Assembly (NCBI RefSeq): GCF_000701365.1
Contig: NZ_JNIK01000021.1
Coordinates: 1 to 64,000 of the forward strand
DNA: 64,000 bases
Origin: Blastococcus sp. URHD0036
GTDB lineage: Bacteria; Actinomycetota; Actinomycetes; Mycobacteriales; Geodermatophilaceae
Direction of reading: 5' to 3'
The notes beneath the pieces were generated by a model. The model was given only the letters and a program-made list of their open reading frames with translations. It did no database searches and was not told the DNA's origin. Positions within the stretch are counted from its first letter, which is position 1. The number at the start of each line of letters is the position of its first letter. The position numbers and the translations under genes were made by a program. Positions 40,646-44,720 of this stretch are shown piece after piece.

Positions 40646-41932
40646 TCAGGGGATCCGACGAGCGGGAGGGGCCTGGGGTTCCCGGCGGCCGGGCACGCTC
40701 CGGTCCCGGTCCGGCGACCCGGTCCGGTCCCCCGCACGGTGCAGCAGCGTCGCGGGGCGCACCGCCCCGGCACCGAACCGGCGGGCGGCCCGGTCGGCGG
40801 CGAGCTCGGCGTCCCGGCGGCCGTGCTCGCGGGCTCCGAGCTCGAGCTGCTGGGGCGCGGAGCCGGCGTCGACCAGGCGCTCGGCGCGCACCCCGACCAG
40901 CCGGATCCGGGCCCGGTCCAGCCCCAGCGCGTCGAACAGCGCCCGGGCGGTGTCGTAGAGCTCCTGCCCGACGTCGGTCGGCACGTCGAGGGTGCGACTG
41001 CGGGTGATCGTGGCGAAGTCGGCGAAGCGGACCTTGATGCTCACCGTGCGCGCCAGCCAGCCGCCGGACCGGAGCCGGCCGGCGGTGCGCTCGGCCAGCC
41101 GCAGCAGCTCCCGGTGGATGACGACGGGGTCGTCGACGTCGGTGCCGAAGGTCTCCTCGTGACCGGCCGACTTCTCCGGCTCGCCGGGGACGACCCGGCG
41201 GGGGTCGCGACCCCACGCCAGCTCGTGCAGGTGGCTGCCGGCGGCCGCGCCGACCGCCCGCTGCAGCGTCCGGGCGGGCACGTGCGCCAGGTCGCCCACG
41301 GTGCGCAGGCCCAGCCGCAGGAGCACCTCCTCGGTCTTGGCCCCGACCCCCCACAGCGCGCCCACCGGCAGCGGGTGGAGGAAGTCCATGACCTCCGCGG
41401 GACGGACCACCCGCAGCCCGTCGGGCTTGGCGGAGGTGGAGGCGAGCTTGGCGACGAACTTGGTGCCCGCCACGCCCACCGAGCACGTGATGCCCTGCTC
41501 GTCGAAGACCCGCGCCCGGATGTACTCCCCGATCGCGACGGCGTCGCCGAGCCGGCGCCCGGCGCCGGAGACGTCGAGGAAGGCCTCGTCCAGCGACAGC
41601 GGCTCGACCAGTGGCGTGATCGACCGGAAGAGGGCCATGACCGAGCGCGAGACCTCCCCGTAGAGCGCGAGGTCCCCCGGCAGCACCGTGGCGGTCGGGC
41701 ACAGCCGCAGCGCGCGGGCGGTCGGCATCGCGGCGTGCACCCCGTAGCGGCGCGCCTCGTAGGTGGCGGAGGTGACCACGCCGCGGTTGCCCTGCCCGCC
41801 GACGATCACCGGCGTGCCCGCCAGCTCCGGGTGCCGGCGCACCTCCACGCTGGCGAAGAAGGCGTCCATGTCCACGTGCAGCACGGTGCATCCCGCTGCG
41901 CGCTCCCCCGTACGCCCGACCGCCCGGACCAC
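40646..41932 (-). CDS. dinB: DNA polymerase IV (Y-family translesion polymerase)
   Basis: A translesion DNA polymerase. The 428-residue protein has the Y-family catalytic residues D21 and D23 (HVDMDAFFASVE) and D115-E116 (SLDEAFLD), the helix-hairpin-helix region near VGAKTEEVLLRLG, and the little-finger domain to about residue 350; a Pro/Arg-rich tail follows. GTG 41932 is set by GGAGG six bases upstream. A perfect LexA box (41950-41965) overlaps the promoter region, so damage induction is predicted. No beta-clamp peptide was confidently recognised in the tail. Confidence 0.96.
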   Translation of the reverse strand: MVRAVGRTGERAAGCTVLHVDMDAFFASVEVRRHPELAGTPVIVGGQGNRGVVTSATYEARRYGVHAAMPTARALRLCPTATVLPGDLALYGEVSRSVMALFRSITPLVEPLSLDEAFLDVSGAGRRLGDAVAIGEYIRARVFDEQGITCSVGVAGTKFVAKLASTSAKPDGLRVVRPAEVMDFLHPLPVGALWGVGAKTEEVLLRLGLRTVGDLAHVPARTLQRAVGAAAGSHLHELAWGRDPRRVVPGEPEKSAGHEETFGTDVDDPVVIHRELLRLAERTAGRLRSGGWLARTVSIKVRFADFATITRSRTLDVPTDVGQELYDTARALFDALGLDRARIRLVGVRAERLVDAGSAPQQLELGAREHGRRDAELAADRAARRFGAGAVRPATLLHRAGDRTGSPDRDRSVPGRREPQAPPARRIP

Positions 41933-42117: not shown

Positions 42118-42137
42118 GGGCCACCGTTCGGTGGCCC
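42118..42137 (+). promoter_or_regulatory. Leader stem-loop before the DGGA-repeat gene
   Basis: GGGCCACC (42118-42125), loop GTTC, GGTGGCCC (42130-42137): a perfect 8-bp stem 18 bases before the ATG and just upstream of the GGGAG ribosome-binding site (about 42147-42151). It may affect translation or mark the 5' end of the mRNA. Confidence 0.55.
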
Positions 42138-42155
42138 ACGACGGATGGGAGCAGC

Positions 42156-42425
42156 ATGGCGCTCGACGACGAGGACATGACCAGCACCGAGGGCCCGGCC
42201 GACGGCGGCGCCGTCGGCGGCGGTTCCGACGGCGGTGCTGACGGCGGTGCGGACGGCGGTGCCGACGGCGGCGCGGACGGCGGCGCGGACAGCGGTGCCG
42301 GTGACGGTGGCGCCGACGGCGGTGCCGACAGCGGCGCGAAGCACGGCCCGGCCGACGGTGGTGCCGGTGGCGGCGACGGCGGTGCCGACGGTGGGGCCGA
42401 CGGCGGCGCGGACGGTTCCGCCTGA
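42156..42425 (+). CDS. Asp-Gly-Gly-Ala repeat small protein, function unknown
   Basis: An 89-residue acidic, hydrophobic-poor protein. After a short head (MALDDEDMTSTEGPA) it consists of twelve exact DGGA units plus DSGA and DGSA variants, encoded by a 12-bp DNA repeat (GAC GGC GGT GCC and variants). It has 18 Asp, one Lys, one His and no aromatic or Cys residues. There is no signal peptide or membrane segment. ATG 42156 follows GGGAG. Its stop TGA overlaps the first codon of the JmjC oxygenase frame (CTGA), suggesting coupled translation. It could be a modification substrate, a precursor peptide or a Ca2+-binding repeat protein; none is proven. Confidence 0.75.
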   Translation: MALDDEDMTSTEGPADGGAVGGGSDGGADGGADGGADGGADGGADSGAGDGGADGGADSGAKHGPADGGAGGGDGGADGGADGGADGSA

Positions 42426-43702
42426 CCTCCGACCTCACCGGACGGGGCCGGCCGGTCGTCGACCGGCCGGCCCTGCGCCGGTGCACCTCCCTCGACCCGC
42501 GGACCTTCGCCGCGGAGCACTGGGCCCGCCGGCCCCTGCTGACCCGTGCCGCCGACACCGGCGCGGACTTCTCCGACCTGCTCGACCTCGCCGCGATCGA
42601 CGAGTTGCTGTCCCGGCGCGGCCTGCGGACGCCGTTCCTGCGCATCGCCAAGGACGGCGCCGTCGTCGACGCGAAGCGCTTCACCACCTCCGGCGGCGCG
42701 GGCGCCGAGGTCGCCGACCAGGTCTCCTCCGACGCGGTGCTGCGGCTGTTCGCGGAGGGCAGCACCGTCGTCCTCCAGGGGCTGCACCGGCTCTGGCCGC
42801 CGCTGATCGAGTTCGCCGACCAGCTCGCCGCCGACCTGGGGCACCCCACGCAGGTCAACGCCTACGTGACCCCGCCGTCGTCGCGCGGGTTCGCCGCCCA
42901 CTACGACGTGCACGACGTGTTCGTGCTGCAGATCGCCGGCGAGAAGCACTGGCGCATCCACCCCCCGGTGCACCCCGACCCGCTGCGCTCCCAGCCCTGG
43001 GAGCAGCACCGCGACGAGGTCGCCGCCGCGGCCGAGGGCGAGCCGGTGATCGACGCGGTGCTGCGCCCCGGCGACGTCCTCTACCTGCCGCGCGGCTACC
43101 TGCACGCCGCCACCGCGCTCGGCGAGATCAGCGCCCACCTGACCGTCGGCGTGCACTCGGTCACCCGGTGGTCCGCGGCCGAGGCCGCGCTGGACCTCGT
43201 CCGCGAGCTCGCCGCCGACGACGTGGAGCTCCGCCGGTCGCTGCCCCTGGGCGTGGACCTGGCCGACCCGGACGCGACCACCGACGACGTGGCCGCCGTC
43301 CTCTCCGGGCTGCGGGACTGGCTGGACCGGGTGGACCCGGCCGAGGTCGCCGACCGGCTGCGCGGGCACGCCTGGGCGCAGGTCCGCCCCGAGCCGGTCT
43401 CCCCGCTGACCCAGGCCACGGCGGTCGCCGCCCTGTCGGCCGACACCGTGCTCACCCTGCGCACCCGGCTGCGCTGCCAGCTCCGCGAGCCCGACGGCGG
43501 CCGGGTCGTGCTCGTCGCGGGCCGCCGCCGGCACGACTTCCCCGCGGACACCGGGCCGGCACTGGCCGCTCTGCTCACGACCGGTGAGCTGAAGGTCGCC
43601 GACCTCCCGGGCCTCGACCGGGACGACCAGCTGACGCTGGCGCGCCGCCTGCTGACCGAGTCGATCGCGGTCGTCGCCGACGCGGTGCTGCCTCCCGCGT
43701 GA
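42422..43702 (+). CDS. JmjC/cupin-type Fe(II) oxygenase (ribosomal-oxygenase-like), apparent CTG start
   Basis: A probable 2-oxoglutarate/Fe(II) hydroxylase acting on protein or peptide side chains. The cupin_4/JmjC core has the iron triad H160, D162 (HYDVHDVFVLQ) and H228 (RGYLHAA), and GEKHWRIHPP between. The conserved N-terminus FAAEHWARRPLLTRA (about residues 31-45) shows that coding begins near 42422, yet this frame has no ATG, GTG or TTG from its last stop (42302) until TTG 42605. The only coupled start is CTG 42422, overlapping the upstream TGA. A winged-helix-like C-terminal region follows. The substrate is unknown; the adjacent DGGA protein is a candidate. Confidence 0.85.
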   Translation: MTSDLTGRGRPVVDRPALRRCTSLDPRTFAAEHWARRPLLTRAADTGADFSDLLDLAAIDELLSRRGLRTPFLRIAKDGAVVDAKRFTTSGGAGAEVADQVSSDAVLRLFAEGSTVVLQGLHRLWPPLIEFADQLAADLGHPTQVNAYVTPPSSRGFAAHYDVHDVFVLQIAGEKHWRIHPPVHPDPLRSQPWEQHRDEVAAAAEGEPVIDAVLRPGDVLYLPRGYLHAATALGEISAHLTVGVHSVTRWSAAEAALDLVRELAADDVELRRSLPLGVDLADPDATTDDVAAVLSGLRDWLDRVDPAEVADRLRGHAWAQVRPEPVSPLTQATAVAALSADTVLTLRTRLRCQLREPDGGRVVLVAGRRRHDFPADTGPALAALLTTGELKVADLPGLDRDDQLTLARRLLTESIAVVADAVLPPA

Positions 43703-43715
43703 GGCGCGGTGCACG

Positions 43716-44720
43716 ATGGGCCCCGTGACGGCGCTCGCGGGACAGGACGGGGACACGCCCGCCCCCCGCTCCCCCCGCCCGGCCGGGAAGCTCGACGAGA
43801 CCCGGTGCTCGGTGCGGGCGGCGAACCGGGGCGACTCCCCCACCGCCACCGCCGCCCCGGCTCAGCGCTGGGTGCTGGTGGAGCAGCCCGGCCCGTGGGG
43901 GCGGGACGCGCTCCTGCAGTCGCGGATCGACCCGCTGGTGGCGGCCCGGCTGGCGCAGCGGGCGCGGTCGGAGGGCGTGCGGGTGCTGCTCATCCGGCGT
44001 CCGGACGCACGCGCGGGCGAGACCGGGCACCGCTGGGCCTACGTCGACGGCCGCCCGGGCCGGCAGGGCGCCTGGTGGTCGGTGCGCGGGTCCGACGCCG
44101 AGATCGCCGATGCGCCGTGGGACGGCAGCGTCGGCGAGCGCCGCGACGAGCTCAGCTACCTGGTCTGCAGCCACGGCGGGCACGACGCCTGCTGCGCCCT
44201 GCGCGGCCGGCCGGTGGCGCGCGGACTGCTCGAGGCCGGTGCGGACGTCTGGGAGTGCAGCCACCTGGGCGGCGACCGGTTCGCCGCCAACGTCGTCGTC
44301 CTGCCGCTGGGCGTCTACTACGGGCGGGTGCCCGGGGACGGCGCGGAACTGCTCGCCGCGCACGCGAAGGACCAGGTGGCGCTGCCCTGGCTGCGCGGGC
44401 GCGCCGGGCTGCCGCCGGCGGTGCAGGCCGCGCAGCACCACGCGCGGACCGAGCTCGGGCTGCTCGGCGTCGACGACCTGCCCGCCCGGCGGGCGACCCG
44501 GGTGACCCCCGCCGGCCAGCCCGTCGAGCGCTGGGAGGTCGCGCTCGCGGGGGCCGACGGCGACGTCCTCGTGACGGTCGAGTGCCGGCCGACCGAGCAA
44601 GCGTTCCGGCTGACCTGCTCGGCCACCCACGAGGCGCACGCCCGCGTGTGGGAGGTGGTCTCGACCGCCGTCTCCTCGGGCGGCCGGACGACGACCTCGA
44701 CGGAGCGCCGCCGGCTCTAG
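43716..44720 (+). CDS. Sucrase/ferredoxin-like (thioredoxin-fold [2Fe-2S]) protein
   Basis: A 334-residue member of the Suc_Fer-like family. The N-terminal part holds C31. The ferredoxin-like C-half holds YLVCSHGGHDACCALRG (C151, C159, C160) and WECSHLGGDRFAAN (C181), a cysteine set suited to an iron-sulfur cluster. It begins 13 bp after the JmjC gene on the same strand and probably belongs to the same operon. It could supply electrons to the oxygenase or act in related redox chemistry. Its stop shares CTAG with the convergent YdeI gene. Physiological role unproven. Confidence 0.88.
   Translation: MGPVTALAGQDGDTPAPRSPRPAGKLDETRCSVRAANRGDSPTATAAPAQRWVLVEQPGPWGRDALLQSRIDPLVAARLAQRARSEGVRVLLIRRPDARAGETGHRWAYVDGRPGRQGAWWSVRGSDAEIADAPWDGSVGERRDELSYLVCSHGGHDACCALRGRPVARGLLEAGADVWECSHLGGDRFAANVVVLPLGVYYGRVPGDGAELLAAHAKDQVALPWLRGRAGLPPAVQAAQHHARTELGLLGVDDLPARRATRVTPAGQPVERWEVALAGADGDVLVTVECRPTEQAFRLTCSATHEAHARVWEVVSTAVSSGGRTTTSTERRRL

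Follow-up and report, generated by a model that had tools for sequence, protein, structure and literature searches.

A DGGA-repeat peptide conserved beside a JmjC-type oxygenase in Actinomycetota suggests a compact peptide-modification operon

The DNA analysed here, referred to as the window, comprises the first 64,000 nucleotides (nt) of contig NZ_JNIK01000021.1 from Blastococcus sp. URHD0036, whose genome measures 5.18 Mb; local GC content is ~77%. On its plus strand lie three consecutive genes encoding an acidic peptide built of DGGA repeats, an Fe(II)/2-oxoglutarate oxygenase of the JmjC_2 type, and a Suc_Fer-like protein with a predicted thioredoxin-like [2Fe-2S] ferredoxin core. We find that the first two are conserved together across Actinomycetota, and because this conservation is near one-to-one and the type of repeat changes in step with the enzyme, the peptide is very probably the substrate of the oxygenase. 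The explanation that we favour, with moderate confidence, is a dedicated peptide-modification operon, in which the JmjC enzyme would beta-hydroxylate Asp residues of the acidic substrate and the Suc_Fer-like protein would act as reductant. An initial annotation of this DNA had already described three plus-strand genes in a row, and all three were recovered in place.

Conservation of the peptide-oxygenase pair

We read 30 loci from the family of the host (Geodermatophilaceae), the window included, 20 more from that family, 20 from its order, 80 named loci and all 61 loci from a phylum-wide sample, the window again among them; the family and order samples were covered in part. The named loci include Geodermatophilus, Blastococcus, Modestobacter, Klenkia, Pseudonocardia, Actinokineospora, Amycolatopsis, Saccharopolyspora, Micromonospora, Actinoplanes, Kribbella, Cellulomonas, Marmoricola and Cryobacterium, among others. 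Setting aside 14 loci with <450 nt of upstream sequence from a total of 203 distinct ones left 189 informative loci across Actinomycetota, and at 180 of these an Asp-rich peptide of small residues ends near the oxygenase start. The composition test used for this count (Asp at least 12%, small residues at least 65%, stop codon between -260 and +75 nt relative to the estimated start of the oxygenase) was passed by 5 of 380 decoy positions; it also admits two loci (L098, L202) with acidic peptides of neither the DGGA nor the DxDx kind.

The nine misses comprise eight homologues lacking the peptide and one Kribbella locus (L167), at which it sits further upstream, before an extended oxygenase. At this Kribbella locus a long N-terminal oxygenase extension with GNPANLG-like repeats lies between peptide and domain. 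The initial annotation had proposed a functional link between peptide and oxygenase, and had named the regular occurrence of homologous oxygenases without the repeat protein as the observation that would speak against it. Since 180 of the 189 loci have the peptide, and since the eight that lack it are the least similar to the window enzyme, we consider the link well supported.

Within the family, 108 of 112 genomes contain the oxygenase at an expect value (E) of 1e-10 or better, and a DGGA peptide lies directly upstream at all 30 listed family loci, the window included. Further out, matches were obtained in 177 of 298 genomes of an order-wide sample (at 1e-20, distant homologues included) and in 57 of 396 genomes of the phylum-wide sample; the system is thus common but patchy.

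Presence of the peptide was also compared between genomes. Among 247 genomes of the order outside the family, at least three matches to a looser DGGA pattern were found in 92 of the 113 that have the oxygenase and in 2 of the 134 that lack it; for this count, compiled by hand, the oxygenase was called at E 1e-50 or better, and 13 genomes with weak matches were scored as without. One of the two exceptions (G194) has a peptide followed by the first part of an oxygenase that a contig end cuts off, and the other (G186) has three unrelated, scattered single matches. Fewer than three matches were found in 21 oxygenase genomes, 11 of them from a single family (f10), and those zero-match genomes that were examined (L094, L216) contain a DxDx-type peptide instead. 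L216 illustrates how repeat type is distributed. The other examined loci of its family have DGGA repeats, its own peptide (DADADST) is of the type found in deep lineages, and in a tree of 61 oxygenases its enzyme clusters with those same lineages. The repeat type tracks the oxygenase lineage and not the host.

The repeat peptide

The peptide gene (42156–42425, +) starts with ATG and is preceded by a ribosome-binding-like GGGAG (42147–42151). It had been annotated as an 89-residue DGGA-repeat protein, in agreement with the open reading frame (ORF), which holds 12 DGGA units. All 12 are identical at codon positions 1 and 2 and differ at third positions only. The codon pattern GAYGGNGGNGCNGAYGGNGGNGCN, which encodes DGGADGGA, has seven matches genome-wide, all inside this ORF, and a reversed control gave none. 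The peptide has a pI of 4.05 and contains 18 Asp residues, of which 15 lie beyond residue 14; Pfam and NCBIfam hold no family model for it. Its N-terminal segment MALDDEDMTSTEGP (42156–42197, +) is similar across family loci and may be the part recognised by the oxygenase. Indeed, a short acidic N-terminal segment recurs more widely (DDDMTST, DDDITTS, DEDIETV), with DDDI and DEDI forms in distant loci.

Core composition was examined in 153 distinct peptides that pass a stricter N-terminal rule (175 of 206 loci, some of the assigned starts being internal). In the groups of loci termed close and middle, the repeat unit is (A)DGG(A), with Asp residues most often spaced by 4 residues; in deep lineages it is DGDATDGTDG or DADASDADA, with a spacing of most often 2–3 residues. 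Asp is present in 98% of close cores and in all middle and deep ones, and Cys in none of the 153. Judging from these cores, Asp is the one reactive residue common to essentially all of the peptides. A different tandem unit (PTEDDENLDAPGEHSQDTGDE) was seen at L202, in a peptide that precedes a deep-branch oxygenase.

The oxygenase

The second gene (42422–43702, +) is assigned to the NO66-MINA-YcfD type of Fe(II)/2-oxoglutarate oxygenase by Pfam, alignment and predicted fold. Its product matches PF08007 (JmjC_2) at E 6.8e-29, scoring 100.4 bits against a gathering score of 22, and is 73–82% identical to the Geodermatophilus, Blastococcus, Modestobacter and Klenkia counterparts. The iron triad H160/D162/H228, which had been annotated as intact, is present when residues are counted from the CTG at 42422, and all 26 aligned homologues share it, together with K175, which we take to be the 2-oxoglutarate lysine by analogy with NO66 and YcfD. 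The structure model (predicted local distance difference test, pLDDT, 90) aligns along most of its length with NO66, MINA and YcfD. A Foldseek comparison with NO66 (4ccm_B) gave E 3.8e-27 and TMq 0.65, covering the full ribosomal oxygenase (ROX) architecture, with ~23% identity within the structure match.

The enzyme therefore shares its full-length fold, the HxD...H triad and the 2-oxoglutarate lysine with the ribosomal oxygenases NO66, MINA53 and YcfD, but unlike them it is genetically tied to a small repeat peptide. It also differs from NO66 at H164-D165, a pair that is invariant in the 26 homologues and corresponds to I-E in the NO66 alignment. Enzymes of the NO66/MINA/YcfD type hydroxylate the beta-carbon.

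The Suc_Fer-like protein

The third gene (43716–44720, +) encodes the protein described initially as sucrase/ferredoxin-like, a description borne out by its PF06999 match (E 7.7e-17, 62.4 bits against a gathering score of 34.9). The recurring motifs are C-x-[HN]-x2-HD-x-CC and, later in the sequence, HxGG[D/C/E]RFA. The seven best matches of the structure model are all thioredoxin-like [2Fe-2S] ferredoxins (TMt 0.65–0.69), but with E values of 1.7e-3 or worse, and a sequence search found no solved structure for Suc_Fer. The protein resembles Apd1, Aim32 and SCO5830 in its PF06999 assignment and predicted thioredoxin-like ferredoxin core, Apd1 and SCO5830 being, we assume, members of that family. 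It differs from all three in being genetically tied to a JmjC enzyme. At the position where yeast Apd1 presumably has its second His ligand, Suc_Fer proteins of the window type have HxGGD, sometimes with C or E as the last residue, a motif that possibly reflects an unusual [2Fe-2S] ligation. SCO5830 is presented as a thioredoxin-like ferredoxin that is induced by copper overload and is discussed among DmdR1-linked genes (PMC12161575).

Where a peptide is present and enough downstream sequence is available, Suc_Fer lies directly 3' of the oxygenase at every close locus (63 of 63), at 45 of 73 in the middle group and at 34 of 38 in the deep group. Among the Micromonosporaceae, several loci of Micromonospora and Actinoplanes type (L084–L086, L151, L155, L146) retain peptide and oxygenase without an adjacent Suc_Fer.

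Translational coupling and upstream signals

The oxygenase frame contains no ATG, GTG or TTG before position 42605, which falls inside the conserved domain. The start consistent with homology is the CTG at 42422, which overlaps the peptide stop codon as CTGA (42422–42425, +). Among 65 distinct close loci, 60 have this overlap in frame and 51 lack any ATG, GTG or TTG nearby. The pattern points to a conserved CTG start and to tight translational coupling between the two genes. A frameshift fusion of peptide and oxygenase is disfavoured, as no slippery heptamer was seen by eye at the overlap and CTGA is kept at those 60 loci, and we prefer reinitiation at the CTG as the probable route to the oxygenase. 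Judging by spacing and overlap, the three genes are probably co-transcribed.

In the 5' untranslated region, a perfect 9-bp inverted repeat (42118–42137, +) ends 18 nt before the peptide start. A stem of at least 6 bp ending 15–36 nt before the peptide start, a range set after a first look at the data, was found at 61 of 142 loci, with 10 expected; its sequence varies.

Proposed mechanism and alternative explanations

We propose that translation begins with the small acidic repeat protein, whose N-terminal DDxDM/I segment is probably recognised by the oxygenase. The enzyme would be translated by coupling from the CTG over the peptide stop codon and, because of this mode of translation, would probably be scarce relative to its substrate. 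It most likely beta-hydroxylates Asp residues of the repeats, the window peptide offering up to ~15 such sites in its core; we consider Asp the probable target. The Suc_Fer-like protein would most likely re-reduce the oxygenase iron after uncoupled turnover, although for a role as reductant we put the chance at somewhat below even. The resulting poly-beta-hydroxyaspartyl peptide would be an intracellular ligand of hard metal ions, a property that we consider doubtful. An encoded precursor lies beside a candidate modifying enzyme, as in the tailoring of a ribosomally synthesised and post-translationally modified peptide (RiPP); the peptide is a putative RiPP. On a wider and tentative view, the locus may represent an ancient class of ribosomal peptides spread across the phylum Actinomycetota, whose tandem Asp repeats a ROX-type JmjC enzyme with its own ferredoxin would convert into a poly-beta-hydroxyaspartyl metal ligand or buffer inside the cell.

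A number of findings weigh against this proposal in one part or another. The eight peptide-less homologues (L113, L114, L195–L200) are 28.2–33.3% identical to the window enzyme and peptide-bearing loci start at 33.2%, so the two sets are barely separated. The motif HxDxHD, present in all 180 peptide-bearing enzymes, is kept by six of the eight and was for that reason rejected as a marker. Suc_Fer, too, is missing beside all eight. We labelled them paralogues post hoc, and the count over 189 loci excludes nothing on that ground; because the label was given after the absence had been seen, the split between peptide-bearing enzymes and paralogues does not count as independent evidence. The eight do not form one clade in the tree of 61 oxygenases, the root of which is unsure, but fall in three places with long branches and need three changes: six group together (89/79), L199 stands beside the peptide-bearing L110, and L195 is on a very long branch. 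At L098, moreover, the peptide is acidic but non-repeated.

Other points concern the chemistry and the helper protein. NO66 and MINA are named histidyl, not aspartyl, hydroxylases, and the nearest characterised enzymes as a whole hydroxylate His or Arg in ribosomal proteins, which weighs somewhat against Asp; in favour of Asp are their action on a beta-carbon and its presence as the one reactive residue in essentially all the peptides. Suc_Fer is missing next door at 32 of the 174 peptide-bearing loci with enough downstream sequence, and is thus a frequent helper but not indispensable; as related Suc_Fer proteins occur also in oxygenase-free genomes, it may serve something else. With respect to metals, the best matches to an IdeR/DmdR1 iron box consensus upstream were no better than those in shuffled sequence. 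Lastly, among 131 neighbouring ORFs at 23 loci, surveyed both with and without Suc_Fer, no recurrent protease or exporter was found; cleavage to a small product is therefore not suggested, though a protease encoded at a distance could still act.

If the peptide is the substrate, the modified residue could be something other than Asp, such as His in PGxHDGG repeats or Ser/Thr, or Asp hydroxylation could be a step towards dehydration or a crosslink. We regard this as unlikely, albeit the strongest of the alternatives. The histidyl specificity of the closest characterised relatives argues for it, as does the frequency of His-containing cores in the close (87%) and middle (78%) groups; in the deep group, however, that frequency falls to 31%, and just one His accompanies the 15 core Asp residues of the window peptide. 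Somewhat less probable again is that the peptide serves as an acidic partner, inhibitor or scaffold for an oxygenase that acts on a ribosomal protein. The fold is indeed that of a ribosomal oxygenase, and the peptides combine acidity with a low content of hydrophobic residues, but repeat number and type vary freely as the Asp periodicity stays, which is easier to reconcile with a repeated substrate than with a docking partner.

The tight CTGA overlap, the non-standard start and the 5' hairpin would also fit an upstream ORF that controls expression of the oxygenase as a leader, its product being inert. We hold this to be very improbable, as the repeat variation confined to third positions and the phylum-wide composition point to selection on the protein. 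That GC-rich, low-complexity sequence was mistaken for a gene, an idea prompted by the local GC content, is refuted for practical purposes by the genome-wide uniqueness of the repeat, the third-position variation, the decoy result and the conservation across loci.

Relation to known systems

A literature search found no description or assay of the operon, and a text search found no paper with the string DGGADGG; the check was incomplete, and Iyer et al. 2010, on peptide-modifying dioxygenases, is possible prior art, reportedly linking double-stranded beta-helix (DSBH) dioxygenases to peptide metabolites and to glycine-rich collagen-like bacterial proteins. The chemistry proposed here, Asp beta-hydroxylation, is carried out by the RiPP enzymes CinX and CanE and by FIH on ankyrin repeats, but their enzyme families or substrates differ from those of the window system. 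In the biphenomycin family, ornithine hydroxylase activity is ascribed to BipG and PbsQ (PMC12707348, PMC12257519). BipG, BpmG and PbsQ are alike in that a JmjC/cupin-like enzyme is linked to a ribosomal peptide, but they belong to a large cluster with a multinuclear non-heme iron-dependent oxidative enzyme (MNIO), a B12-dependent radical S-adenosylmethionine enzyme (B12-rSAM) and a TldD-type peptidase, whereas the present system has two or three genes and an Asp peptide of many repeats.

If the peptide is the substrate, the locus would represent a widespread and very compact modification system of one peptide, one oxygenase and usually one ferredoxin. Eukaryotic ribosomal oxygenases would gain a counterpart in bacteria that is amenable to genetics, and the peptide, with its many natural sites, would allow the processivity of a JmjC hydroxylase to be measured. 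PF06999, to which to our knowledge little bacterial function has been assigned, gains a concrete partner to test. Should the class of poly-beta-hydroxyaspartyl metal ligands be real, it would suggest that peptide-tailoring oxygenases and eukaryotic NO66/MINA are linked in evolution.

Genomic surroundings and minor observations

A phage origin was rejected, as seven stretches from viral_contigs matched a pattern but none of them encoded a relative. Upstream of the peptide and on the opposite strand, the window carries a DNA polymerase IV-like gene (~40646–41889, -). This neighbour recurs at 51 of 64 close loci, at a single one of the 77 middle loci and at none of the 40 deep ones. In the survey of neighbouring ORFs, no Pfam family occurred in more than 3 of the 131. 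With the polymerase confined almost wholly to close loci and no recurring Pfam neighbour, the unit stays together while its neighbours change. At one locus (L056), a second DGGA-repeat ORF of 75 amino acids, with different ends, lies ~320 nt upstream of the main peptide.

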